Source: Asparagopsis taxiformis (taxonomy: Eukaryota > Rhodophyta > Florideophyceae > Bonnemaisoniales > Bonnemaisoniaceae). Taken from it: a DNA stretch of 64,000 nt. Made by a program: the position numbers and the translations under genes. The notes under the pieces were generated by a model. It did no database searches. It was not told where the DNA came from and saw only the letters and a list, made by a program, of their open reading frames with translations. Shown piece after piece: positions 2,905-57,949 of the stretch. Location of the stretch: positions 60,588-124,587 of the forward strand of contig JALQPE010002726.1 in NCBI GenBank assembly GCA_030407315.1, in the 5' to 3' direction. Every line of letters begins with the position of its first letter. Positions within the stretch are counted from its first letter, which is position 1.

Positions 2905-2986
2905 GATGGTATGGCAGAGCGGTCTAATGCGTGTGACTAGAAATCACATCCTTTCGGGGGCCCAGGTTCGAATCCTGGTACCATCG
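2905..2986 (+). tRNA. tRNA-Ser(AGA)
   Basis: Complete intron-less cloverleaf of 82 nt. The acceptor GATGGTA pairs with TACCATC and the discriminator is G. The D stem is GCA/TGC. The anticodon stem TGTGA/TCACA closes a CTAGAAA loop, giving anticodon AGA at 2939-2941. A long type-II variable arm precedes the T arm, CCAGG-TTCGAAT-CCTGG. The order is the normal 5'-to-3' one, in contrast to the permuted tRNA-Leu genes near 7.6 kb. Confidence 0.95.
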
Positions 2987-7523: not shown

Positions 7524-7531
7524 AAAAAAAA
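7524..7531 (-). terminator. Pol III T-run of permuted tRNA-Leu, minus copy
   Basis: On the minus strand eight T follow directly after the TCGGCTCG trailer of the permuted tRNA gene. The terminator sits just outside the leader/trailer stem, where a permuted pre-tRNA should end. Confidence 0.75.
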
Positions 7532-7543
7532 CGAGCCGACCCG

Positions 7544-7633
7544 CATAGCGCCTTAGACCACTCGGCCACGCTGCCCTGGCTGTGACAGCGGTGAGATTCG
7601 AACTCACGCATACAAAGTATACTACGACCTGAA
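7544..7633 (-). tRNA. Circularly permuted tRNA-Leu(CAG), minus copy
   Basis: The 3' half (7633-7583) lies upstream of the 5' half (7575-7544), separated by a 7-nt spacer. Joined in mature order they give acceptor GGCAGCG/CGCTGTC (one G-U), D stem GCC/GGC and anticodon stem CTATG/CGTAG. The loop is TTCAGGT (anticodon CAG). A long type-II variable arm (ATAC-TTT-GTAT), T arm GTGAG-TTCGAAT-CTCAC and discriminator A complete it. The type-II arm, A73 and CAG are all correct for leucine. The break lies at the 5' edge of the anticodon loop (31/32 or 32/33). Leader GGAGC..CCGA and trailer TCGGCTC pair imperfectly, and a Pol III T-run follows. Permuted tRNAs of this kind mature through a circular RNA in Cyanidioschyzon and green algae; that this one does so is inference. 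Confidence 0.9.
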
Positions 7634-7681
7634 CGTTGCGCGCGATTCGGTGCTCCTGCCCTTCGATGGCTTGTTTTCCTA

Positions 7682-7776
7682 TTTAAAATCACCCGAAATA
7701 AATGAGTTGAAATTAACACGTGACCATCAAATAAGAGCAGGACACCTGGACAGGATACTCAAGAGGGAATATATGT
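7682..7776. promoter_or_regulatory. TATA-like elements of the divergent permuted tRNA genes
   Basis: TTTTAAAT (minus strand, 7682-7689) and AATATATG (plus strand, 7769-7776) lie about 50-60 nt upstream of the two mature 3' halves. They are placed nearly symmetrically in the 200-bp divergent spacer. In a permuted gene the internal B box precedes the A box, so an upstream TATA element would make sense. This assignment rests on position and composition only. Confidence 0.4.
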
Positions 7777-7830
7777 GGGATTTAAGTACCAAACGGTTCT
7801 CTCACACATCTGAGCACGTCGCGCGCAACG

Positions 7831-7920
7831 TTCAGGTCGTAGTATACTTTGTATGCGTGAGTTCGAATCTCACCGCTGTCACAACTGGGGCAGCGTGGCC
7901 GAGTGGTCTAAGGCGCTAAG
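7831..7920 (+). tRNA. Circularly permuted tRNA-Leu(CAG), plus copy
   Basis: Inverted partner of the copy at 7544-7633. The 3' half (7831-7881) is identical to that copy. A different 7-nt spacer (7882-7888) and the 5' half (7889-7920) follow. The acceptor, D, T and variable arms form as in the other copy. The anticodon stem reads CTAAG/CGTAG, so pair 30-40 is an A-G mismatch instead of U-G. Leader TGAGCA (7811-7816) is exactly complementary to trailer TGCTCA (7927-7932), and a run of six T follows. The leader/trailer stem is thus kept with a different sequence from the other copy, which argues that the structure matters. The mismatch may mean this copy is weaker or decaying. Confidence 0.82.
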
Positions 7921-7932
7921 CAGCTATGCTCA

Positions 7933-7938
7933 TTTTTT
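7933..7938 (+). terminator. Pol III T-run of permuted tRNA-Leu, plus copy
   Basis: Six T directly follow the TGCTCA trailer of the plus-strand permuted tRNA-Leu. Confidence 0.7.
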
Positions 7939-12471: not shown

Positions 12472-13013
12472 AAGAAGAATAAACAACTGTAAGTGTGCAA
12501 GAGTGAAATCCAGCGGGGCACGGCACTGTAATCACGATGCGTTGTATTTGCGTTGCAAGCGACAGCAAGTTGTCGGGGGGGCGGCGGGCGGCGCTTGAGG
12601 CACACGTGTATTTGATTGGCGGGACATTGTTGTGTGATTCCCGAACCGGCGGCACGCGGCGAGCCGAGCAGGCGCCCCCTACGTCATTGAAAAGCGATTG
12701 TTGCTGAGATCAGCAATGCGCCCTTATTTTCACTGATAAGCATTTGTGGAAGCTGCGATACGCGCTTCCCATTGGCTGTCGTCAGATATCATATGCTCCG
12801 TGTGACATGAGCGTGACAAATTGATTTCAATTTGCCAACGCTCTACGCCTCGCCACTGTTACTGTACTCGTGCCCCCTGTTTGGCATACTTTATTTGCCA
12901 GCATCACCTTTTCATTCCTACGCTTGCCCCATCTTCTCCTATTTTACCCGCCTCTGTCCACCGCTCCCTCGTCAAACTCACACCTCCCCACCCCAGCCCA
13001 CCCCACTCCAATC

Positions 13014-15572
13014 ATGGATACCGTTTCCCCCGGAGAGTCTCGCCAAAAGACACAGGGAAAGATGCGCCCCATGCGCTCCTTCGCCATCCTCTCGGCAAAT
13101 CTCGAAGCTTTTCTCTCTACACATGCCTTCTCCCTCCTCTTCCTCATCTTCTACCTCACCTGTACAGCCCTCATGTTCGTTTGGGGCTTCACTACACAGT
13201 GGAAGAAGACCGACAACGAAGAAATGATCTATTTCATTTCCATAGCCAGAGGCGCTGGTTACAGTCTCAATCTCAACACAAGCCTCGTCATCCTCATTGC
13301 CGCTAGACTCACTTTCACTCTTATCCGCGAAACTCCCCTCCAATACATTCTTCCGCTCGATAAGATTTTCCCGCTTTTCCACATGTTTGTCGGCTATATG
13401 ATTGCATTCCTCGTTCTCATCCACGGCACTTTCCATATGACATGGATCATTCGATTCGAAGGATGGAACTCGGGTCTCTGGGGTTTCACAATGAGTTTCG
13501 TCACCGGTTTCATCATCCTTCCAGTCTTTGTCGTCATGCTCATCACTTCCCTTCCTCACTTCCGCAAGAACAAGTTCCGCCTCTTCTACCTCTTCCATCT
13601 TTACGGCGCCGCTCTCTTCTTCTTCATCCTCATCTTCCACGGTATGTATTTTGAGAGGCCAGAGACCTACAAATGGATTACACCCTCCCTCATCATCTAT
13701 CTCCTCGATCGTTTCATCAGACGTATGAAGATCAGCAGTCATGATTTGGACATTGCCCTGGAAAAATCCATCCTCAAGGACGGTGATATTCTCGAACTCC
13801 GTGTTCCCAAACCCTTCGACTATCGTCCCGGCCATTATGCAGAGGTTATGGTTCCGTCCATTAACAAGGAATGGCATCCATTCTCCATCGCTAGTGCACC
13901 ACACGAAGAAACCATGTGCTTCTACATCAAGGTGCTCGGCGATTGGACCACCGAAGTTCGTGATGCTTTCAAGGCTCGTCTCGATGGTACAATCACTGAA
14001 CCACTCAAAGTAAGTGTTCGTGGCCCGTACGGAGCTCCATGCCAGGATGTCGACGGTTTCAAGCGTGTCGTCCTCGTCTCTGGAGGTGTTGGTGCCACAC
14101 CATTTTCCGCCATTGTTAAGGAGCTGCACTACCTCAAGACGCAGGCTAAGAACAAGAACGATGGCCCGGGACGCATTGCCCGCGACATTGATGTTCGCAT
14201 TCGTGACAGTATCGCTAATCTCTACGATGTCGAAGTGCAGGACATGGAGAAGGCTACTCACATTGCGCAACAGAAGAGCATCTACGTTACTGAAATGCTT
14301 GAGCTCACCGCCAGGAGGACCTCTTCCCTGCACCGAATGAGGTCCAGTGTCATGGATCGCATGCATGGATCATCGTCTACAAAGACAGTACTCAGTACCG
14401 ATGCTGCTATTCCCAGCTTGGAGGATGGCCCTGTTGGTGGTGGCCAACCGATGAGCAGGATGCAGCGTTTGTCATCTTCATTGAGCAAAGCTGGAAACAT
14501 TCGACGAGTGATGAGCACCTTGTCGGAGAACCCGGTTACTTGGGATCAAGTGATGTCTGCGCAGAACGATCCAATGACCAACACGACCGATCTTCGTCGT
14601 CGGATGGCGCGCCTTTACGATAAGAGAGGAATGCTCTTGGCGTTCATGCACACAGCTCGCTTCACCTTTTTCCTGCTGCTCACTTTGATTGTACGAATTA
14701 TTATTATTTCCGTTGCCGCCACTCTGGATTCGCCCTATTTCCAGCTCAACGATCAATTTGATGGCTACACGCGCTTGTGGCCTGTCGTTGTTGACGCCCT
14801 CTTCTCCGTTCCCGTTGCTGCTGCACTGGTGGTCTCCATTACACTTGAGATTAGTTTCATGCACTCGCGATTCTTTGACACCGCGGCGAGAAACTTTGAC
14901 GCCTTTGTCCTTTTGCCAGCGGCCGTCATCGGCTGTGTGCTTGCCATCCGTACTTGGGCGCGACAGGTCCCGGAACTTGTTCTTGTCAAGGTTATTGAAT
15001 ATGTGCTGTTCATCCCGCTATTGTTCCTAGGTCTGAGCTGGCGCTTGTACCGTATCACACGTTCGAGGAGTCTTCTCTCAGATCCGACATGCAGATGCGA
15101 TAACACGGACCACATTCCCGACGTTGACTTTATCTGGTCGTTCCCCTACGAGCAGAGTGATCAATGGTTGCAGGATGAGCTCGGTCCGCTAGCAAAGGGT
15201 ACTGAACTACGACTTCATAGGTATGTGACTAGGGAGAAGGAACTTGATGCGGAGGCGGCGAAATCATTTATTACTAGTGCCAATACTGGACGTCCAAAGT
15301 GGGATGATATTTTCCAGACAATCGCCGAGGAAACGCCAAGTAATGGAGCAATTGGTGTGTTCTTCTGTGGACCCCACGTGATGGGCAATCAAGTTCGCGA
15401 TGCCATGCTTAAGGTCGAGGTATTGAGCAATTTGCGAGCTGCTTACTTGCGAAATACGCCCGACGAGGTGTTGATGACCGACTTGAATTTGCCAAATACT
15501 GAAGCAGTGGAGAGGCTGCGATCGTTGGGATGCAGCGTTCATTTCGTCTACAGAGAAGAAAACTTTGGTTGA
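13014..15572 (+). CDS. NADPH oxidase (Rboh/NOX family), red-algal type
   Basis: Single-exon gene of 852 codons; the ATG at 13014 is the first in frame and follows a C-rich leader. Two ATTGG boxes lie at 12615 and 12771. The product should carry electrons from cytosolic NADPH through FAD and two haems to O2, making superoxide outside. The ferric-reductase domain has two haem-ligand pairs spaced by 13 residues, H123/H137 and H195/H209. FAD binding is marked by HPFSIAS (288-294) and the start of the NADPH site by SGGVGATPF (356-364). Then comes an insertion of about 400 residues with four more membrane helices (about 539-668) before CGPH (783-786) and the terminal EENFG. No EF-hands are visible. 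Extra helices in the NADPH domain are the feature reported for red-algal Rboh. Confidence 0.93.
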   Translation: MDTVSPGESRQKTQGKMRPMRSFAILSANLEAFLSTHAFSLLFLIFYLTCTALMFVWGFTTQWKKTDNEEMIYFISIARGAGYSLNLNTSLVILIAARLTFTLIRETPLQYILPLDKIFPLFHMFVGYMIAFLVLIHGTFHMTWIIRFEGWNSGLWGFTMSFVTGFIILPVFVVMLITSLPHFRKNKFRLFYLFHLYGAALFFFILIFHGMYFERPETYKWITPSLIIYLLDRFIRRMKISSHDLDIALEKSILKDGDILELRVPKPFDYRPGHYAEVMVPSINKEWHPFSIASAPHEETMCFYIKVLGDWTTEVRDAFKARLDGTITEPLKVSVRGPYGAPCQDVDGFKRVVLVSGGVGATPFSAIVKELHYLKTQAKNKNDGPGRIARDIDVRIRDSIANLYDVEVQDMEKATHIAQQKSIYVTEMLELTARRTSSLHRMRSSVMDRMHGSSSTKTVLSTDAAIPSLEDGPVGGGQPMSRMQRLSSSLSKAGNIRRVMSTLSENPVTWDQVMSAQNDPMTNTTDLRRRMARLYDKRGMLLAFMHTARFTFFLLLTLIVRIIIISVAATLDSPYFQLNDQFDGYTRLWPVVVDALFSVPVAAALVVSITLEISFMHSRFFDTAARNFDAFVLLPAAVIGCVLAIRTWARQVPELVLVKVIEYVLFIPLLFLGLSWRLYRITRSRSLLSDPTCRCDNTDHIPDVDFIWSFPYEQSDQWLQDELGPLAKGTELRLHRYVTREKELDAEAAKSFITSANTGRPKWDDIFQTIAEETPSNGAIGVFFCGPHVMGNQVRDAMLKVEVLSNLRAAYLRNTPDEVLMTDLNLPNTEAVERLRSLGCSVHFVYREENFG

Positions 15573-23297: not shown

Positions 23298-24072
23298 CTG
23301 GCAATAGTCGGAGAACTGCTGTTCGTCCAGTACGAGCTAGACAGTGCTCGCAAATGCCAACCGGGTACAAAGCTCTCTTTTTGCCAAGTCAGGACTACGC
23401 CTTCTCCTCACTGGCGAGGACTGCAAACGGCAAGTGCCGCATCTGGACTTCATGTATCCAGGTCCGGACAAGAAGGACAAGAAGAAGTATTGGGGAACGC
23501 CAATGCCGAACCCAAACTTCGCCATCCTGGCGACTGGTGCAGTCAGCTCTTGCCTCCTCGTTCGCCCGCGTTCGCACGTCTACCTGAACTGGCCTACAAG
23601 TATGGCTTCACAGCTATTGCCAGCTCTGAACGCTAAGGTCGTTCACATCCCGCCGTTCTCCGTCATGTTCAGCCGTGGTGATTTGGAACACGCTGGTCCT
23701 GGATGGTCCGACCACAGGGAGAATACCAAGGAATTCGACGATATCGACCTGGAATCGGCGGGTGGAGAGCGTGACCCCCGTAATATCTATGGACATTACC
23801 TCCGCATTCACAGTATGGCCATTCGTGAAGGGAACCAGATGGTCAACGATCTCGTATTCACACCTGGTGGACCTGCACCGTACATCGCGCCGTACGACTC
23901 CGCCTACGCTGCGCCAAGTTCGTCGGACAGCGAGGAGGAGAGCGACGACGACAGCCAAGATGGTGGTGAACAGGGCAACCAGGACGGGAGCGAAGATGGC
24001 AGCCCGCCGGGGAGCCCCAGTAGTAGTAGCAATTCGTCTTCTGATAGTGAAGAAACAGAAAGTGAAGAGTAA
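23298..24072 (+). pseudogene. 2OG-oxygenase-like ORF, 5'-truncated and frameshifted
   Basis: The frame open from 23344 to 24072 has no ATG before 23452, yet conserved sequence (GLRLLLT) begins earlier. The preceding stretch (ELLFVQYELD...) is in another frame, joined near the TCTCTTTTTGCC tract, so a frameshift is likely. The coding match ends at the edge of the dispersed repeat. It shares with the downstream ORF the GLRLLLT block, an H-x-D (HLDF), the PPFSVMFSRGDLEHAG block and a downstream YLRIH. The H-x-D...H pattern and the RGDLxHAG sequence suggest a double-stranded beta-helix 2-oxoglutarate/Fe(II) oxygenase. The tail is acidic and serine-rich. A perfect GTAAGT donor overlaps the stop codon, but joining it to 24239 does not keep frame. 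Confidence 0.6.
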
Positions 24073-24238
24073 GTTTAGTTCTAGAGTACTTAGCATGCAG
24101 CTAGAACTAACTCTTCTAACTCATAAACATCTCACTATTGAACAGCATCTCCATACCTACTAAGCTAGCAGTACTATAGGCCTATACTACGCTATAACTT
24201 GGGGTATTACCCCTATTGCCTAATACTTCTACTCCTAG

Positions 24239-25972
24239 TTAACGGACGAGACTGGTACCCCCAACCGTCCTGTCCAAGCCGCGCAGGAGCAGGTCTCACC
24301 GGCTTCGCAGCCTGAGCCTGCGACTCCGGCTGCCGAGCAGCATCCTGCTGCTCCGGCCCCCGCTGTCGAAGCTTCCCGTTCTGCATCTGCTAGCAGTTCG
24401 GGAAGCTCCAGCGATGACAGTTTCGTCCCTTCACCGTCCGGTGGGGTTGGACAGAAGACGGTTGTGAGGATTTCGACGGAGGGCCCTACTCCCGAAAATG
24501 TGGTCGAGGACAGGTCGGGTGGACAGGGAGGTAGCAGTGCGAAAGACGGTGCAGATCCTGACGAAGATGTCATTGAGGTCAGTGATTCTGCACCGTCCGG
24601 AGTGGAAACTTCTGGGAGGAAAGTGATGCCCAGAAGGAGTACCCGCCTGCAAGCGAGTCGTTCCGGTCGTGGTGGAACGGCGGGTGGTGCTATTGAGGTA
24701 GTCGAACTGGAGAGCGCCCCCGAGGATGCGGGTGAAAACTCCATCCTCGGGAAGCGTAACTTGGAAGCAGCTTCTGCGACGCCCGAGCCTTCTACCAAAA
24801 AGAGAAGAGTCGGTGAGACTTCTTCGAAGTCGTCGTCAAAGAAATCCAAGTCGGCTTCCAGAGGTCGCTCTCGGGAGCCGGTTCTCCAGTTCGACGACGC
24901 CCAGGAGAATCCCATTCCCGACAGTATCGTCGATGAGAATGTGGCCGCCGTTCTCCCCAGCGCAATTGCGTCTGGCAGCCGGATGAAGTACTATATGGAA
25001 AGTACGACGGTGGAGACGGTTCGGGCGGAAATGAGGGTGGCAGCATTCCAGGCAGCTGCATCGCCGGGAGCTGAGGAAACGGTGGTGGAACAGTACTTTG
25101 CGGTGAAGCGGGCGTTTCTGGAAAACTTGGGGGTTATTGTTTTGGAGCGCTTATTGGAATCGTCCACGGCTGGGAGTGCGACGCATGAGCTGTTCGGTCA
25201 CTTCGCTAGGCAGTTCCCGCTGGTTGAGGAGGTTGAAAAACCCTCCCAGCAGTCTGATTCTAATGATGACGACAGGGAACCACAGGAAGAGCCGCCAGCT
25301 TTTGCAAAGCCCGGCTTCGATCCTTCGCCGTGGCAGTTCATCCACAACGTGGGTGTTGCGGCAGGCCGCATCGATGGAGTTCGTGGGCGCCTCTCTCTGC
25401 CGCGGCGTGAGTTGTGCGATAAGCTGGAGGAGGGCAATTTGGAGATGTATAAGAACAAGTTGGTGGCAGAGCTTGCTCTTGGTGTTTGTGCGGAAATTCT
25501 CAAGTTGGGAATGGAGGGTGAGGATCCTGTCTTCTTCCCGAAGACAGGATTGCGGCTGCTTCTTACAGCAGATGGGGCTGCGGACCAGGATGGACACACG
25601 GACTTCAAGGTATCGACGAATAGTGTTGGCAGTCCTACCAAGTCTCCATCTTATTTCATGATGTCGAGCGGAGCCGATGGGTTCTTTACAGTAGTTGCCC
25701 CTTATAGTCATGTATGCCTGGTCAATCCGGACGCCGATATGTGGAAGGTTCCCCCTCTCACCTTTTGGGTGCCACCCTATTCCGTATTGGTTGGTCGCGG
25801 TGACCTTTACCATTACGGGGTCGGCTTCAGCCGAGGAGATCTTCCTGCAGGCGAAAAGCTAGTCTATGGCCTGCCCACGCGCGGCCACATCTACTTGAAG
25901 ACGGAGAAGGACGTCCTCACGGACTACATCCACACCGTCGAATATTACAAGTACGATAGGAGCAATAGATAG
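24239..25972 (+). CDS. 2-oxoglutarate/Fe(II) oxygenase-like protein, possibly transposon-borne
   Basis: The frame is open from 24239, just after a pyrimidine-rich TCCTAG that looks like a splice acceptor, to 25972. There is no ATG until 24626, so the first exon may be missing. The N-terminal third is disordered (Ser/Ala/Pro-rich, acidic patches, then a basic KKRR/SKKSKS patch that could be a nuclear signal). The C-terminal 200 residues form the conserved part: GLRLLLTADG, HTDF (H-x-D), VAPYSHVCLV, VPPYSVLVGRGDLYHYG (distal His) and HIYLKT. It is a paralogue of the broken ORF just upstream. The oxygenase assignment rests on the motif pattern only, and the substrate is unknown. Both genes sit in repeat-rich DNA. 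Confidence 0.6.
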   Translation, partial: LTDETGTPNRPVQAAQEQVSPASQPEPATPAAEQHPAAPAPAVEASRSASASSSGSSSDDSFVPSPSGGVGQKTVVRISTEGPTPENVVEDRSGGQGGSSAKDGADPDEDVIEVSDSAPSGVETSGRKVMPRRSTRLQASRSGRGGTAGGAIEVVELESAPEDAGENSILGKRNLEAASATPEPSTKKRRVGETSSKSSSKKSKSASRGRSREPVLQFDDAQENPIPDSIVDENVAAVLPSAIASGSRMKYYMESTTVETVRAEMRVAAFQAAASPGAEETVVEQYFAVKRAFLENLGVIVLERLLESSTAGSATHELFGHFARQFPLVEEVEKPSQQSDSNDDDREPQEEPPAFAKPGFDPSPWQFIHNVGVAAGRIDGVRGRLSLPRRELCDKLEEGNLEMYKNKLVAELALGVCAEILKLGMEGEDPVFFPKTGLRLLLTADGAADQDGHTDFKVSTNSVGSPTKSPSYFMMSSGADGFFTVVAPYSHVCLVNPDADMWKVPPLTFWVPPYSVLVGRGDLYHYGVGFSRGDLPAGEKLVYGLPTRGHIYLKTEKDVLTDYIHTVEYYKYDRSNR

Positions 25973-49633: not shown

Positions 49634-50992
49634 ATGTTGCGCGAGTTTGGTGACACTGCGAAATTGAAGTTGGGTGCAGGAAAGCCAGCTGATGTTGAAC
49701 CACTCCGCGTGCACCTCAAACCCAACTCCATTCCGATTCGTGCAAAGCAACGCCGCTATCCGGCACCTAAACGAGAGTTTTCGACTCGTTATACACAACA
49801 ACTTTGCAAATTAGGGTTTGGGAGGCCTGCAGAATCACCAGAATGGTTGTCTGCTCCGCTGATTGTCCCGAAGCGACCACCGGCAATGTATCGCTTAACT
49901 ATTGACTATCGAGCAGTCAATAACGCCACTGTACAGACATTTTCGCCGATGCCAAATATCGATGCTGAACTGTCCGACGTCCGTGGTTCAAAGGCTTTTG
50001 CAGGCATAGACTTCTGCAGCGGCTATTGGCAGCTGCCATTGCACGCTGATAGCCAGCCACTATTCGCATTTATGACAGAAGATAGTGTCGTCATTCCTAC
50101 CCGGACGACCCAAGGAGGCTGTAATTCAGCGGCTAACCCTCAGGAAAAGGTTGAACAGTGCTTTACAGAGATCAGGGATCATCTTAAGGCATGGCTGGAC
50201 GAATTTATGTTGTATGATAGCAATGAAGAACAGCTATTGAAAACGCTGCGCCGCTTTTTTGAGATTTTTCGCTCAAGACGTTTGGTCGTATCACTGAAGA
50301 AGTCAGATTTTTTCTTGAGTGAAGTGTCTTGGTGTGGCTGCATAATCGATAGAGAAGGTGTTCGCTATAACCCGAAAAACATTTGTGGGTTGCGCAGCGC
50401 TTCCGAACCACTTACAGCTGCAGAGATGTGTGAATATGTACATGGTTTAAGCTGTATCTCAAACAGCATCACTTCTTTCGCCGAGCGCGTTTCTCCATTT
50501 CGCAAACTGTTGGAGCAAGCTTACAGCAAAGTGGGTGGAAATAGAAAGAAGAAGGCTATCGCTAAGTTGTCTCTGTCGACAGTAGGCTGGAGTGAGACAC
50601 ATTCGACAGCCTTTCGAGACCTACAGGAGCAAATCCAAGACGCCACTCGCCTGGCGCATCGGAACCCTGATCTTGTTTTGTGCATACGCACCGATGCGTC
50701 GGAAAAATACTGGGCAGTAGCAGCAACCCAATGCAATGCACGAGAGCTTTCAAAATCACAAGCCATCCAAACACACCAACCGCTCACTTTTCTCAGTGGA
50801 ACATTTTCCGAGCGCGAAGACCATTGGTCTACATACGAGCGTGAAGCGTTTGCCGTCGTACAGGCTTTCCGGAAATTGGATTACATGCTATCGTGTGATG
50901 CTACTACTCGAGTATTTCCGACCACCGCAACTTGCTGTTTGCGTTCAACCCAGCTGCTATCGTCCCGTCACTGGGACGTCATAAAGTTCTGA
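49634..50992 (+). pseudogene. RT-RNase H of the Ty3-type element, catalytic LDD changed to LDE
   Basis: 452 codons without an ATG at the start. The RT has YRLTIDYRAVNNATV, KAFAGIDFCSGYWQLPL and QGGCNSA; where the family has LDD it reads WLDEFMLY, losing the second catalytic aspartate. The RNase H part follows (LCIRTDASEKYWA, FLSGTFSEREDHWSTYEREAFAV). The frame ends before the rest of RNase H. The substitution and the missing flanks make this copy inactive. Confidence 0.8.
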
Positions 50993-51075
50993 AAGTAGTA
51001 CGTTGGGCGCTCTACTTGAGCTGATTTACCTATCACATCGAACACGTTCCTGGAGACAGTAACACATGGTCGGAC

Positions 51076-51873
51076 ATGATGACACGCTGGATGCGTGGAT
51101 ATCGTAAAAAGCCCGCCATTCGCCGTGTTTCTGCACCAATACCATTCAGTGGTGTAATTTCACCACCTGACTCTCCAGAATTCGACTGGCCTACTGCAAA
51201 AGAAATTCGCAAATTGCAGTGCATTCACAAGCATAGCACACCGCCCAATTCAAGAGTAGAAAATGACCATGGCATAATTCGAACCAACTCCGCAGCTTGG
51301 ATTCCGTATGGATGCATCGACCTGGAGCTGAGGCTTCTCACAATCGCACACGGTGGAACTGCAGGTCACCGTGGTGCTGACCCGACGTGGCATGCACTTC
51401 GAGAACATTTCACATGGAACGATCAGTGTCATGATGTGCGCGCATTCGTCTCGTCATGGTTGCTGTGCTTGCTGGCTAAGTCGGGTAACAAGGTCCCCCG
51501 ACCGCTTGCAAGTACACTTCACGCCCGCAAACGAAACGAAGTATTACATTTTGATTACCTGTTTCTCGGTGCAAGTGACAAGGAATTCAAGTACGTACTG
51601 GTTGTCAAAGGCGACTTGAGTGGTTATTGTTGGCTAGAACCTACTGAAGCAGCTACGGCTGCACACACAGCAGAGGTTCTCGCGCGTTGGACCCGCATTT
51701 TTATTGCTCCGCTGGTTTGGGTGTCCGATCGAGGCTCCCATTTCAAAAATGAAGTCTTAGAAGATCTCGCGCGTACCTACCGCATACGACATAACCACGA
51801 ATTTCTATCCACATACAGTGGAAACCCACGACTCGTTTCTAGGATCAAGCGCCAGCTTGGCATTTCTATATGA
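51076..51873 (+). pseudogene. Integrase fragment
   Basis: 265 codons, ATG at 51076. An H-H-C-C zinc-binding region (HGGTAGHRG ... WLLCLLAK, second cysteine not in place) precedes the catalytic core, with Asp in HFDYLFL and Asp in WVSDRGSHFKNE. The glutamate that should follow (usual NGTVE) is absent because the frame breaks after EFLSTYSG. It is therefore inactive. The 3' LTR begins 40 bp later. Confidence 0.75.
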
Positions 51874-54910: not shown

Positions 54911-57900
54911 ATGGAATGCAAGTATGAAGGGTGCTTCTACTACTGCGTAGATGCTTATGCGCTCGCGCTGCATGAGCGAACGTGTCGCTACCGTTTCAAC
55001 CCCTCTCCCCAACATTTCAACAACGCTCGTGTCCCTGCCGTCACCCATGAGCCTGCTCGAAACGGCGACCATGATTCCCCGCAACCCAGCTCCCCAGACC
55101 CAGAATCTGGTCGTGCTTCCTCCAGCGACTCACCCTGTGACGCTTCACTGCCACCAACCTCAACCCCCTCCCGCGCAGACCTCCTCGTGCAATCCCTCGC
55201 CGCCAGTCTCACAACCCTCGAGTACAAGGCCGGCGCTGGCCGCGTGAGCGAAGTCATCACCATCCTACAAGACCCCGCATTCTCCCTAGAAAAGTTCAAC
55301 AGCGCCGTTCGCACCGTAGAAGAATGTCGCCACGTTACCGCTTCCATGGTCGAAACACATTTCCGCACCGAAGGTTACAAGAGCCACATCATTCCAGACA
55401 AAACTGGTAAGTACTCGGCACAGCTGTACCTCCGCGACCCAGTCGACATGCTCCGCAGGCAGTTAGCACTGGCTAACGACCAAAATACTCTCTTCCACCC
55501 CTCCCCACAGACCGCCCCAGACGGCACCGCAATATTTTCTCATCCCCTACACACAGAATTCGCGAAAACGCTGCACCAGGTTACTAGACAGCGCGTGCAG
55601 CTCTCGGAAGATCCACAGGTCGTATGGGCAGAGGAAAATGATCCCACCGCTTCCTCCTTTGCCGGCCTCCTCCAAGTGTACTCCGACAAGAGCAGCACAA
55701 GCCTCAAGAGCTCCGCAATCGTCGCATACCCCATACACGTCACACTGCTCAACTTCTCCGCCCCCCTCCGTCGCCACTGCATCCGTACCGGCCTCACCAT
55801 CGTCGGGTATCTTCCGTACATTGTTAACCCTTCGTCCAACGCCTTGTTCGGTGATGAAATGCCGACAACCTCTAGTTCTGCTAGTCGCGCTCGCAAAATT
55901 GATATTCTTCATAAAGCACTCGAAAAAGTGTTTTCGTCCCTATCCACCGCGTTCTCTTCCGGGTTCCCCTGCACAGACTCCACTGCAACTGCCCGCCAAT
56001 GCTTTCCCATCCTAGCCAATTATTGCTGCGACTTTCCAGAGGCCAAAGAGCTCTCATGCACTCGCAACAGCACTACCACCACACATCCCTGCCACCGCTG
56101 CTACATCCCCGCCACTCAACTTGAATCCAGCGCGCCACACCAGCCCCGCTCCCTCGATGATACACGCTCTGCACGCCAAGAGAGCGCTCAGGAGCATACA
56201 ACTGCTCCGCTCGAAGCTCTCTCCCTCCTCGAACAACACTCTGTCCTCGAATCGACCGCTCTTTTACCCACCAACAGTCCCCTAGACCCCTACAACATTT
56301 TCTCCTTCGAGCCTCTGCACAATCTCCACCTCGGCATCTCAAAGCTCATCAAACAGTGCATTGTCCACCGCCTCAGCTCCCCAGACCTCACCACCACTGC
56401 CTCCCATTCCGGGACACCTCGCACCTTCAAGAAGGTGAAAAAATCCATCCTCGCCGGCTCAAACAGCATTCTGTCCGCTATCGAACGCGACTACTACATC
56501 ACCGGTCTTCATGTCGACTTCTCCAAGGGTGAGAAGGGCACCAATTTGAACGGCCTCTTCACGGAGGACGGCATACGCGGCATGCTCGCAGCCAAAGACT
56601 ATCACCATGTCGACATGGTGTTCCCTTTCATCGCAGCATTCATTGACACATGCTGTGACGAAGTAGATACAGCCCCCCTCACTTCCATCTGCACGCAATA
56701 CTCTGACCTCGTCGCATGGGTCATGAAACGCGGTCGCATCAAGCACTGGACTGCCGCCGAACTAGAAAGCCTCCAGAACTCCATTTCCTATTTCAAACAA
56801 TCAATGCTCTCCACCCTCGGCCCATTCCACACCACAGGTCTCAAAACTTTCAAGTTCCATCTTCTAGACCATCTTCCCGGTGACTTGCAGAGATATGGCG
56901 CCCTGGAACACATTGATGCAGGCCCCTACGAACACTCGCATCTTCTGTTCAAACAGAGTTATAGGAAAACCTCTCGAAGGCGCTCCACAGCCATGGAAGA
57001 GACTATTCGCCACATGGAATTCTCCTTGGCCACTCCAACTGGTCATACCCCATCGAACACATTGGGAAACGCACGCATGATATCGCCCACAGACGGTGCA
57101 GTACTCGTTCGCGACGGATTCACCGTTGCACTGCACGACTTTGCCTCCCTGCTGCCCGATGCAACCCTCCTCGTTGCAGATATCGACGGACAGCCCGATC
57201 CTGCCACTCTTTTGCCGCTGCACAACTCCTCGTTCCCGTCTGGCACCATAACGCTATTCCAGCAACTCGGTGACACAGCTGCACAAGCGTTCCTCACCCT
57301 CGCTAGACTGCGCGCCACGGCAGAAGGCCCTCCAATACATGACATGGACATTTCCGTCACCGTGGTAAAGTCCGCCTACGTCATGGGAGGGTACGTCCCA
57401 GATGCCGACGACTTTGACCCGCACAGTGGCATGCTTCGCCCCACAAACGTGTCGAGGCACAAGCAGCAGCGCGTCTTTGCAACTTCATCGTTCGGCCCCG
57501 CAAAGAGATCGCAGTACTCCTTTGTCGTCATCTCCGGAACTGCCGATGACTACAGAACCATATGGGTAGGGCGCGTCCTGGCACTGGTACGCCTGCAGTC
57601 TCCAAACCTGTTTCAACCTGTAGAACTCGCTTTCGTTCAGTATATGACCTGCTTTGCCCCAAAAACCGCTGTGGAAAAATCACTTGGGTGCATTTGTTTA
57701 AAGTGGTCCACATGGGACCCGGACAACGGATCCGTTGACAGCAATGACACTGCATCCCACAGTGCAGGTGGTCCTTGGTTTGACCTCATTCCTGCATCTA
57801 CTATATCTGGCACCGTGCACATCGTACGAAGTAACTTTCCAGTCAAGCCATTTACGAAACAAATGCACTGGTCGGACCACCGTTTCTATCTCAACCGCTT

Positions 57901-57949
57901 CTACACCAACACTGATTACCAATTCACAGATGATAATGAAGAAGAATAA
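54911..57949 (+). CDS. Plavaka/CACTA-like DNA transposase
   Basis: 1012 codons in one uninterrupted exon, ATG at 54911. The N-terminus has a C-x4-C-x12-H-x3-C zinc finger (C3, C8, H21, C25). After a disordered part come family stretches: YPIHVTLLNFSAPLRR...GYLPYIV (about 275-300), the CCDFPEAKEL...PCHRC block (about 370-395, the place of a catalytic Asp and a CxxC), EPLHNLHLGISK (466-477) and ALEHIDAGPYEHSH (about 663-676). These match the fungal Plavaka group and, more distantly, plant CACTA TNP2 transposases. The full-length frame suggests a potentially active source copy. It is convergent with the 761-codon gene, 77 bp apart. Terminal repeats were not identified. Confidence 0.78.
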   Translation: MECKYEGCFYYCVDAYALALHERTCRYRFNPSPQHFNNARVPAVTHEPARNGDHDSPQPSSPDPESGRASSSDSPCDASLPPTSTPSRADLLVQSLAASLTTLEYKAGAGRVSEVITILQDPAFSLEKFNSAVRTVEECRHVTASMVETHFRTEGYKSHIIPDKTGKYSAQLYLRDPVDMLRRQLALANDQNTLFHPSPQTAPDGTAIFSHPLHTEFAKTLHQVTRQRVQLSEDPQVVWAEENDPTASSFAGLLQVYSDKSSTSLKSSAIVAYPIHVTLLNFSAPLRRHCIRTGLTIVGYLPYIVNPSSNALFGDEMPTTSSSASRARKIDILHKALEKVFSSLSTAFSSGFPCTDSTATARQCFPILANYCCDFPEAKELSCTRNSTTTTHPCHRCYIPATQLESSAPHQPRSLDDTRSARQESAQEHTTAPLEALSLLEQHSVLESTALLPTNSPLDPYNIFSFEPLHNLHLGISKLIKQCIVHRLSSPDLTTTASHSGTPRTFKKVKKSILAGSNSILSAIERDYYITGLHVDFSKGEKGTNLNGLFTEDGIRGMLAAKDYHHVDMVFPFIAAFIDTCCDEVDTAPLTSICTQYSDLVAWVMKRGRIKHWTAAELESLQNSISYFKQSMLSTLGPFHTTGLKTFKFHLLDHLPGDLQRYGALEHIDAGPYEHSHLLFKQSYRKTSRRRSTAMEETIRHMEFSLATPTGHTPSNTLGNARMISPTDGAVLVRDGFTVALHDFASLLPDATLLVADIDGQPDPATLLPLHNSSFPSGTITLFQQLGDTAAQAFLTLARLRATAEGPPIHDMDISVTVVKSAYVMGGYVPDADDFDPHSGMLRPTNVSRHKQQRVFATSSFGPAKRSQYSFVVISGTADDYRTIWVGRVLALVRLQSPNLFQPVELAFVQYMTCFAPKTAVEKSLGCICLKWSTWDPDNGSVDSNDTASHSAGGPWFDLIPASTISGTVHIVRSNFPVKPFTKQMHWSDHRFYLNRFYTNTDYQFTDDNEEE

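Follow-up and report, generated by a model that had tools for sequence, protein, structure and literature searches.

Layout and recognition of the permuted units

Two divergent, permuted tRNA-Leu(CAG) units were found in the 64,000-nucleotide stretch of DNA that was analysed (the window). Copy A occupies 7524-7687 on the minus strand and copy B occupies 7781-7938 on the plus strand, and the pair is flanked by an ABC-transporter gene (-) and a 662-codon open reading frame (+). The elements of both copies follow the same order: a TATA-like box, a leader, the 3' half of the tRNA (positions 30-73), 7 nt, the 5' half (positions 1-29), a trailer, and a T-run. In copy A, the predicted promoter element is the TATA-like box TTTAAATA (7680..7687), 32 nt 5' of the leader stem. 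It is followed on the minus strand by the leader GAGCAC...TCGCGCGCAA (7636..7655), which provides one strand of a predicted bulge-helix-bulge (BHB), the 3' half (7583..7635), the intervening sequence CAGCCAG (7576..7582), the 5' half (7546..7575), the trailer (7532..7545), and an 8-T run (7524..7531), which is the predicted Pol III terminator. The corresponding elements of copy B, all on the plus strand, are the predicted promoter element TTTAAGTA (7781..7788), a TATA-like box 31 nt 5' of the leader stem, the leader (7812..7828), the 3' half (7829..7881), the intervening sequence CAACTGG (7882..7888), the 5' half (7889..7918), the trailer (7919..7932), and a 6-T run (7933..7938), again predicted to be a Pol III terminator. 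In each copy a 53-nt 3' half and a 30-nt 5' half make up 83 tRNA bases. The arms of the inverted repeat (7526-7645 and 7819-7938) are 120 nt each and 93% complementary, with 173 nt between them. An earlier note on this DNA had described the order of the parts, their strands, the 7-nt spacers, the CAG anticodon, the long variable arm and the discriminator A, all of which were borne out in the sequence. It had given the span as 7544..7920, and the pair does lie there, but the units including their signals extend over 7524-7938.

When the whole window was searched with ARAGORN and with Rfam at the gathering cut-off, an ordinary tRNA-Ser(AGA) gene (2905..2986, +), which served as the comparison gene, was the only tRNA reported, and the permuted copies were not called. 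When the halves of each copy were put in mature order, ARAGORN called a tRNA-Leu(cag). A covariance model for permuted tRNAs was built from 12 other tRNAs permuted by script, from which Leu(CAG) was excluded and in which two other Leu tRNAs were included. This model, which is independent of the Leu(CAG) isoacceptor but not of the Leu family, scored one copy at 61.1 and the other at 60.8 bits (E 1.5e-18 and 2e-18), and the remaining three of its five rows in the window scored at most 15.2 bits, the best of them being the T-arm of the Ser gene. In each copy the 3' half precedes the 5' half on one strand, which places both in the circularly permuted class, and the 7-nt spacer from base 73 to base 1 falls in both inside the range of 1-74 nt given for published spacers in a 2014 review (PMC3978253). 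The claim that there are permuted tRNA genes in a red alga is thereby upheld.

Across the genome, all seven matches to the Ser(AGA) tRNA were full length and in normal order, with no permuted copy among them, and all three matches to the Leu(TAG) tRNA were unsplit. The nine related Leu rows among the 18 matches of the joined Leu(CAG) 83-mer held no further permuted gene. A tRNA family search of the genome, in which 63 of 5383 candidates were scored, showed inverted pairs of ordinary tRNA genes too, their starts some 515-690 bp apart: Arg CCT on C614, C1742 and C2133 (the C1742 pair being identified as Arg CCT by equal score only), and Asn GTT on C182 and C2336. A mirrored tRNA pair alone is therefore not unusual in this genome. 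One 20-kb contig (C1424) carries bacterial-looking tRNA genes for Thr, Tyr, Gly, Thr and Trp, and probably derives from associated bacteria in the assembly.

That the host is a multicellular red alga, as had been supposed, was supported indirectly by two proteins. The rbcL protein encoded on the plastid contig is 96% identical to that of Gracilariaceae and 94-95% identical to those of Gelidium, Pterocladiaceae and others. The window contains an NADPH oxidase (respiratory burst oxidase-like) open reading frame of 900 codons (12870-15572, +); among named proteins, those of Chondrus and Asparagopsis come closest to its product, at 46% identity. These likenesses fit a florideophyte, and florideophytes are multicellular. 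Tandem offsets in contig C469 would imply a plastid circle near 177 kb. Elsewhere in the window, 49634-51873 (+) and 54911-57949 (+) hold reverse transcriptase/RNase H and integrase reading frames and a Plavaka-family transposase reading frame (Pfam), and two neighboring reading frames at 23344-25972 have the stretch F(A/P)K(S/T)GLRLLLT in common and possibly represent a local duplication.

The normal-order gene and the position of the join

A normal-order gene at C1832:56629-56711 aligns with the whole of the joined 83-mer and agrees with it at 82 of 83 bases. The sole mismatch is base 52 in the variable arm, which is T in both permuted copies and C in the intact gene. The same contig also has a Leu(AAG) gene, and it was taken as nuclear because the 5' flank of that gene is found again on other contigs. 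Leu(AAG) genes on C2537, C1832, C676, C850 and C719 have 5' flanks that are nearly identical among them, and look as if they had been copied with their upstream region or were part of a repeat. Because the CAG anticodon also has a normal-order gene, the permuted genes are not its only source, and their function is not forced by need. The earlier note had named, as grounds for giving up its reading, a normal-order tRNA-Leu(CAG) gene that accounts for all mature CAG tRNA together with a permuted locus that yields no RNA; of these grounds, the genome search established that the gene exists.

The anticodon arm of the intact gene reads CTACG TTCAGGT CGTAG. In the permuted units the 5' half ends in CTA and CG directly precedes TTCAGGT, as in CTA/CG of the intact gene, which places the join at 29/30; a join at 28/29 would give the same product. 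The geometry of the precursor was scored over 13 registers for a BHB made up of a central helix of 4 bp, an outer helix, and bulges of 3 nt in which the cut follows the second base. Only the 29/30 register fits, with 4/4 pairs in the central helix and with 4/4 pairs in the outer helix of copy A and 3/4 in that of copy B, which has one C-A mismatch (8/8 and 7/8 BHB pairs in total). Against the motif, its inner exon helix is missing (2/4 pairs), and the central helix draws on bases that belong to the D stem of the mature tRNA. The break had previously been put at the 5' edge of the anticodon loop, at 31/32 or 32/33, and neither position held up. At 31/32 the central helix has 0/4 pairs and CTAAG or CTATG stands opposite CGTAG, leaving an anticodon stem that is mismatched in copy B or has a wobble in copy A, whereas 29/30 restores the stem of the intact gene; at 32/33 the central helix has 1/4 pairs.

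In 20,000 trials with shuffled leaders and trailers, the P value of the fit at 29/30 was 0.0005-0.0008 for copy A and 0.001-0.010 for copy B (0.0008-0.0016 and 0.005-0.015 when 28/29 was also allowed), the tests for the two copies not being independent, as the leader near the junction is common to both. The central helix by itself appeared in 1.5-6.9% of shuffles. Unconstrained minimum-energy folds of both precursors had the same 4-bp central helix, a 3-nt bulge, and paired ends. The fold energy of the whole precursor was barely beyond that of shuffled sequences (z -0.91 and -0.92, with 38/200 and 31/200 shuffles at least as good), and the energy of the leader-trailer duplex was matched or beaten by 185/1000 shuffles for copy A and 40/1000 for copy B. 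Both energies were rejected as proof of structure, being unconvincing against the shuffles. By pairing count the BHB is present in a relaxed form, and its fold stability is not clearly above that of shuffles. On the stem of the intact gene and the BHB geometry, the join is assigned to 29/30, inside the anticodon stem.

Transcription signals, conservation and alternative readings

TTTAAATA and TTTAAGTA, the TATA-like boxes of the two units, both have the form TTTAARTA. Their distance to the leader stem is 32 nt in copy A and 31 nt in copy B, and the DNA that surrounds them has diverged. Seven of 25 normal-order tRNA genes have the shorter motif TAARTA in the 50 nt that precede them, while shuffles gave a mean of 0.77 and none of 1000 reached 7. 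TAARTA was chosen after viewing the permuted copies and the tRNA-gene flanks. The set had been cleared in advance of ten loci whose tRNAs are of plastid, organelle-like or bacteria-like type, and of upstream stretches that were shorter than 45 nt or near-duplicates. The intact Leu(CAG) gene is among the seven, with the motif at -38. Downstream, the T-runs of 8 (copy A) and 6 (copy B) start 14 nt past the 5' halves, and no run of four or more Ts was found between leader and trailer in either copy. Judged by its signals, each copy is laid out as one transcription unit, with a predicted promoter upstream, a T-run downstream, and none between the halves. A point against such transcription is that the internal A and B boxes stand in reversed order in the permuted genes.

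Comparison of the two copies showed that 0 of the 83 tRNA bases differ, while 9 of the 21 bases in spacer and trailer do (3/7 and 6/14; Fisher P 1e-7, or 3e-4 when the tRNA parts are set against the spacer alone). The leader was excluded from this count because its alignment needs a gap; it has one substitution and a 3-nt gap between the copies, and the 10 bases on its junction side are identical. If the 83 bases were neutral and had diverged at the rate of 9/21, some 36 differences would be expected, and gene conversion would need to have left out the 7-nt spacer. The difference in divergence speaks against dead copies, and the pair looks maintained.

Decay is nevertheless the alternative that survives best. 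A tandem tRNA-Leu(CAG) repeat could have lost its outer halves, undergone inverted duplication, and decayed, with all of the tRNA now made by the gene on C1832. The existence of that intact, near-identical gene is in favor of such a remnant, and tandem duplication with loss of the outer halves is a published model of origin (PMC3978253). Identical tRNA parts beside a spacer and trailer that differ at 9/21 bases are unlike decay, however, and the TATA-like box, the T-run and the junction-side leader bases have been retained in both copies. Moreover, leader and trailer are without significant similarity to the tRNA halves that would have been lost. Taken together, this makes a dead remnant unlikely. 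Derivation of the leader from a decayed 5' half had been considered on a resemblance seen by eye in copy A, but was rejected under a lax scoring in which 1828/5000 (A) and 4469/5000 (B) shuffles were as good, and derivation of the trailer from a decayed 3' half was rejected likewise (1864/5000 and 3999/5000). As a control under the same lax scoring, leader A was compared with the 3' half, and 296/5000 shuffles were as good.

It is less probable again that the pair has a non-translational role, either by docking Pol III or TFIIIC between two divergent genes or by supplying circular RNA or tRNA fragments. Its location between the ABC-transporter gene and the 662-codon reading frame would suit such a role, as would the presence of a normal-order gene for the same tRNA, but the identity of the copies spans all 83 bases, including the anticodon and the variable arm, and not just the two boxes.

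A second contig (C957) bears the same pair; its alignment with the window covers 10,007 bp at 99.86% identity. In a 436-bp stretch the two differ by a 2-bp indel before the copy B leader and by one substitution in the copy B trailer; both lie outside all tRNA parts, and the substituted base is unpaired in the predicted fold. The two contigs are probably two haplotypes. That a fold-back or chimeric join in the assembly made the pair, which is after all an inverted repeat, is very improbable, because the arms differ at 7% of positions, the same structure stands on two contigs that differ here by an indel and a substitution, and a permuted order would not be expected from simple fold-back of an intact gene.

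Proposed maturation and comparison with known permuted tRNAs

The preferred reading, which is probably correct, is that the pair consists of two permuted tRNA-Leu(CAG) genes that Pol III transcribes from the TATA-like box and whose product matures via a circular RNA joined at 29/30. Every step beyond the sequence is modelled on the experimentally studied algal pathway as reviewed (PMC3978253). Directed by the TATA-like box, Pol III would begin transcription close to the leader, and it would terminate in the T-run. The leader GCGC would then pair with G24-C27 of the 5' half and the leader UCGC with the trailer, leaving the bulges UA/U (copy A) or UA/A (copy B) and AA/C, which with their paired ends would form the relaxed BHB. 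In each bulge the TSEN endonuclease would cleave 3' of the second base, and RtcB would join A29 to C30, closing a circle in which the anticodon stem has its mature form. This circle would lose the 7-nt spacer to RNase P and tRNase Z before the addition of CCA. The resulting tRNA would be almost identical to that of the intact gene, so the pair would add dose or regulation.

Analysis of the genome showed that it encodes Sen34- and Sen2-like proteins and an RtcB, and has family matches for Sen54 and Sen15. A bolder proposal, possible but on balance somewhat doubtful, is that a full four-subunit endonuclease cuts the permuted precursor at 29/30, away from the 37/38 of the ruler model, and that selection has long kept the divergent pair despite the intact gene, the permutation or the circular intermediate being useful in itself. 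If this is true, permuted tRNA genes extend to seaweeds and include a new junction class in the anticodon stem, and cutting at odd sites is separable from a reduced endonuclease, as all four subunits are matched here. The one-base difference from the normal-order gene makes the benefit of permutation approachable by tRNA sequencing.

Table 1 of the 2014 review contains 34 permuted genes, with joins at 15/16, 20/21, 37/38, 50/51 or 59/60, and the permuted tRNA genes described in that review come only from unicellular algae and one archaeon (PMC3978253). The join at 29/30 belongs to none of the junction types I-V (20/21, 37/38, 50/51, 59/60, 15/16). The Amorphochlora nucleomorph was later reported to have two permuted Ser genes (PMC4494063), and Auxenochlorella to have permuted tRNA genes as well (PMC12636532). 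Among the titles and abstract openings listed by searches of an open-access library, none reported permuted tRNA genes from a florideophyte, and no paper on such genes in Gracilaria was found. What appears to be new here is a join absent from the 34-gene table and the coexistence of a near-identical intact gene.

The permuted tRNA-Leu(CAG) of Cyanidioschyzon merolae has the same isoacceptor, the permuted order and a red-algal host in common with the genes described here (PMC3978253). Because 11 of the 43 tRNA genes of C. merolae are permuted (PMC3978253), having one isoacceptor in common supports a shared origin only weakly. Most permuted genes of C. merolae have a TATA-like element upstream and a T-stretch downstream (PMC3978253), an arrangement alike in the present units, and the spacer of its Leu(CAG) gene is 9 nt in comparison with 7 nt here (PMC3978253). 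That gene is joined in the anticodon loop, at 37/38 (PMC3978253), and the present ones in the stem, at 29/30, a difference that would argue for separate events. For C. merolae, a tentative link has been drawn between cutting at odd sites and a reduced endonuclease in which no Sen15 was found (PMC3978253); the present genome differs from that alga, as reviewed, in having a Sen15 family match, and from its Leu(CAG) case in having a normal-order gene and two divergent copies.

The permuted genes of Ostreococcus, Micromonas and the Bigelowiella nucleomorph are like those described here in their permuted order, in the circular-intermediate model, and in that many are class II (Ser, Leu). They are unlike them in that their joins are at 37/38 except for one at 15/16, their spacers are 5-64 nt, and they belong to the green lineage (PMC3978253). 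Thermofilum pendens also has the permuted order, one 7-nt spacer and a BHB at the join, but there the join is at 59/60, CCA is encoded in the gene, a canonical intron is present, and the permuted genes are the single copies for their anticodons (PMC3218864; PMC3978253). The archaeal split tRNA-Lys(CUU) is joined at 30/31, within the anticodon stem as in the present genes, although its two transcripts are joined in trans, unlike the parts of a permuted gene (PMC3218864).
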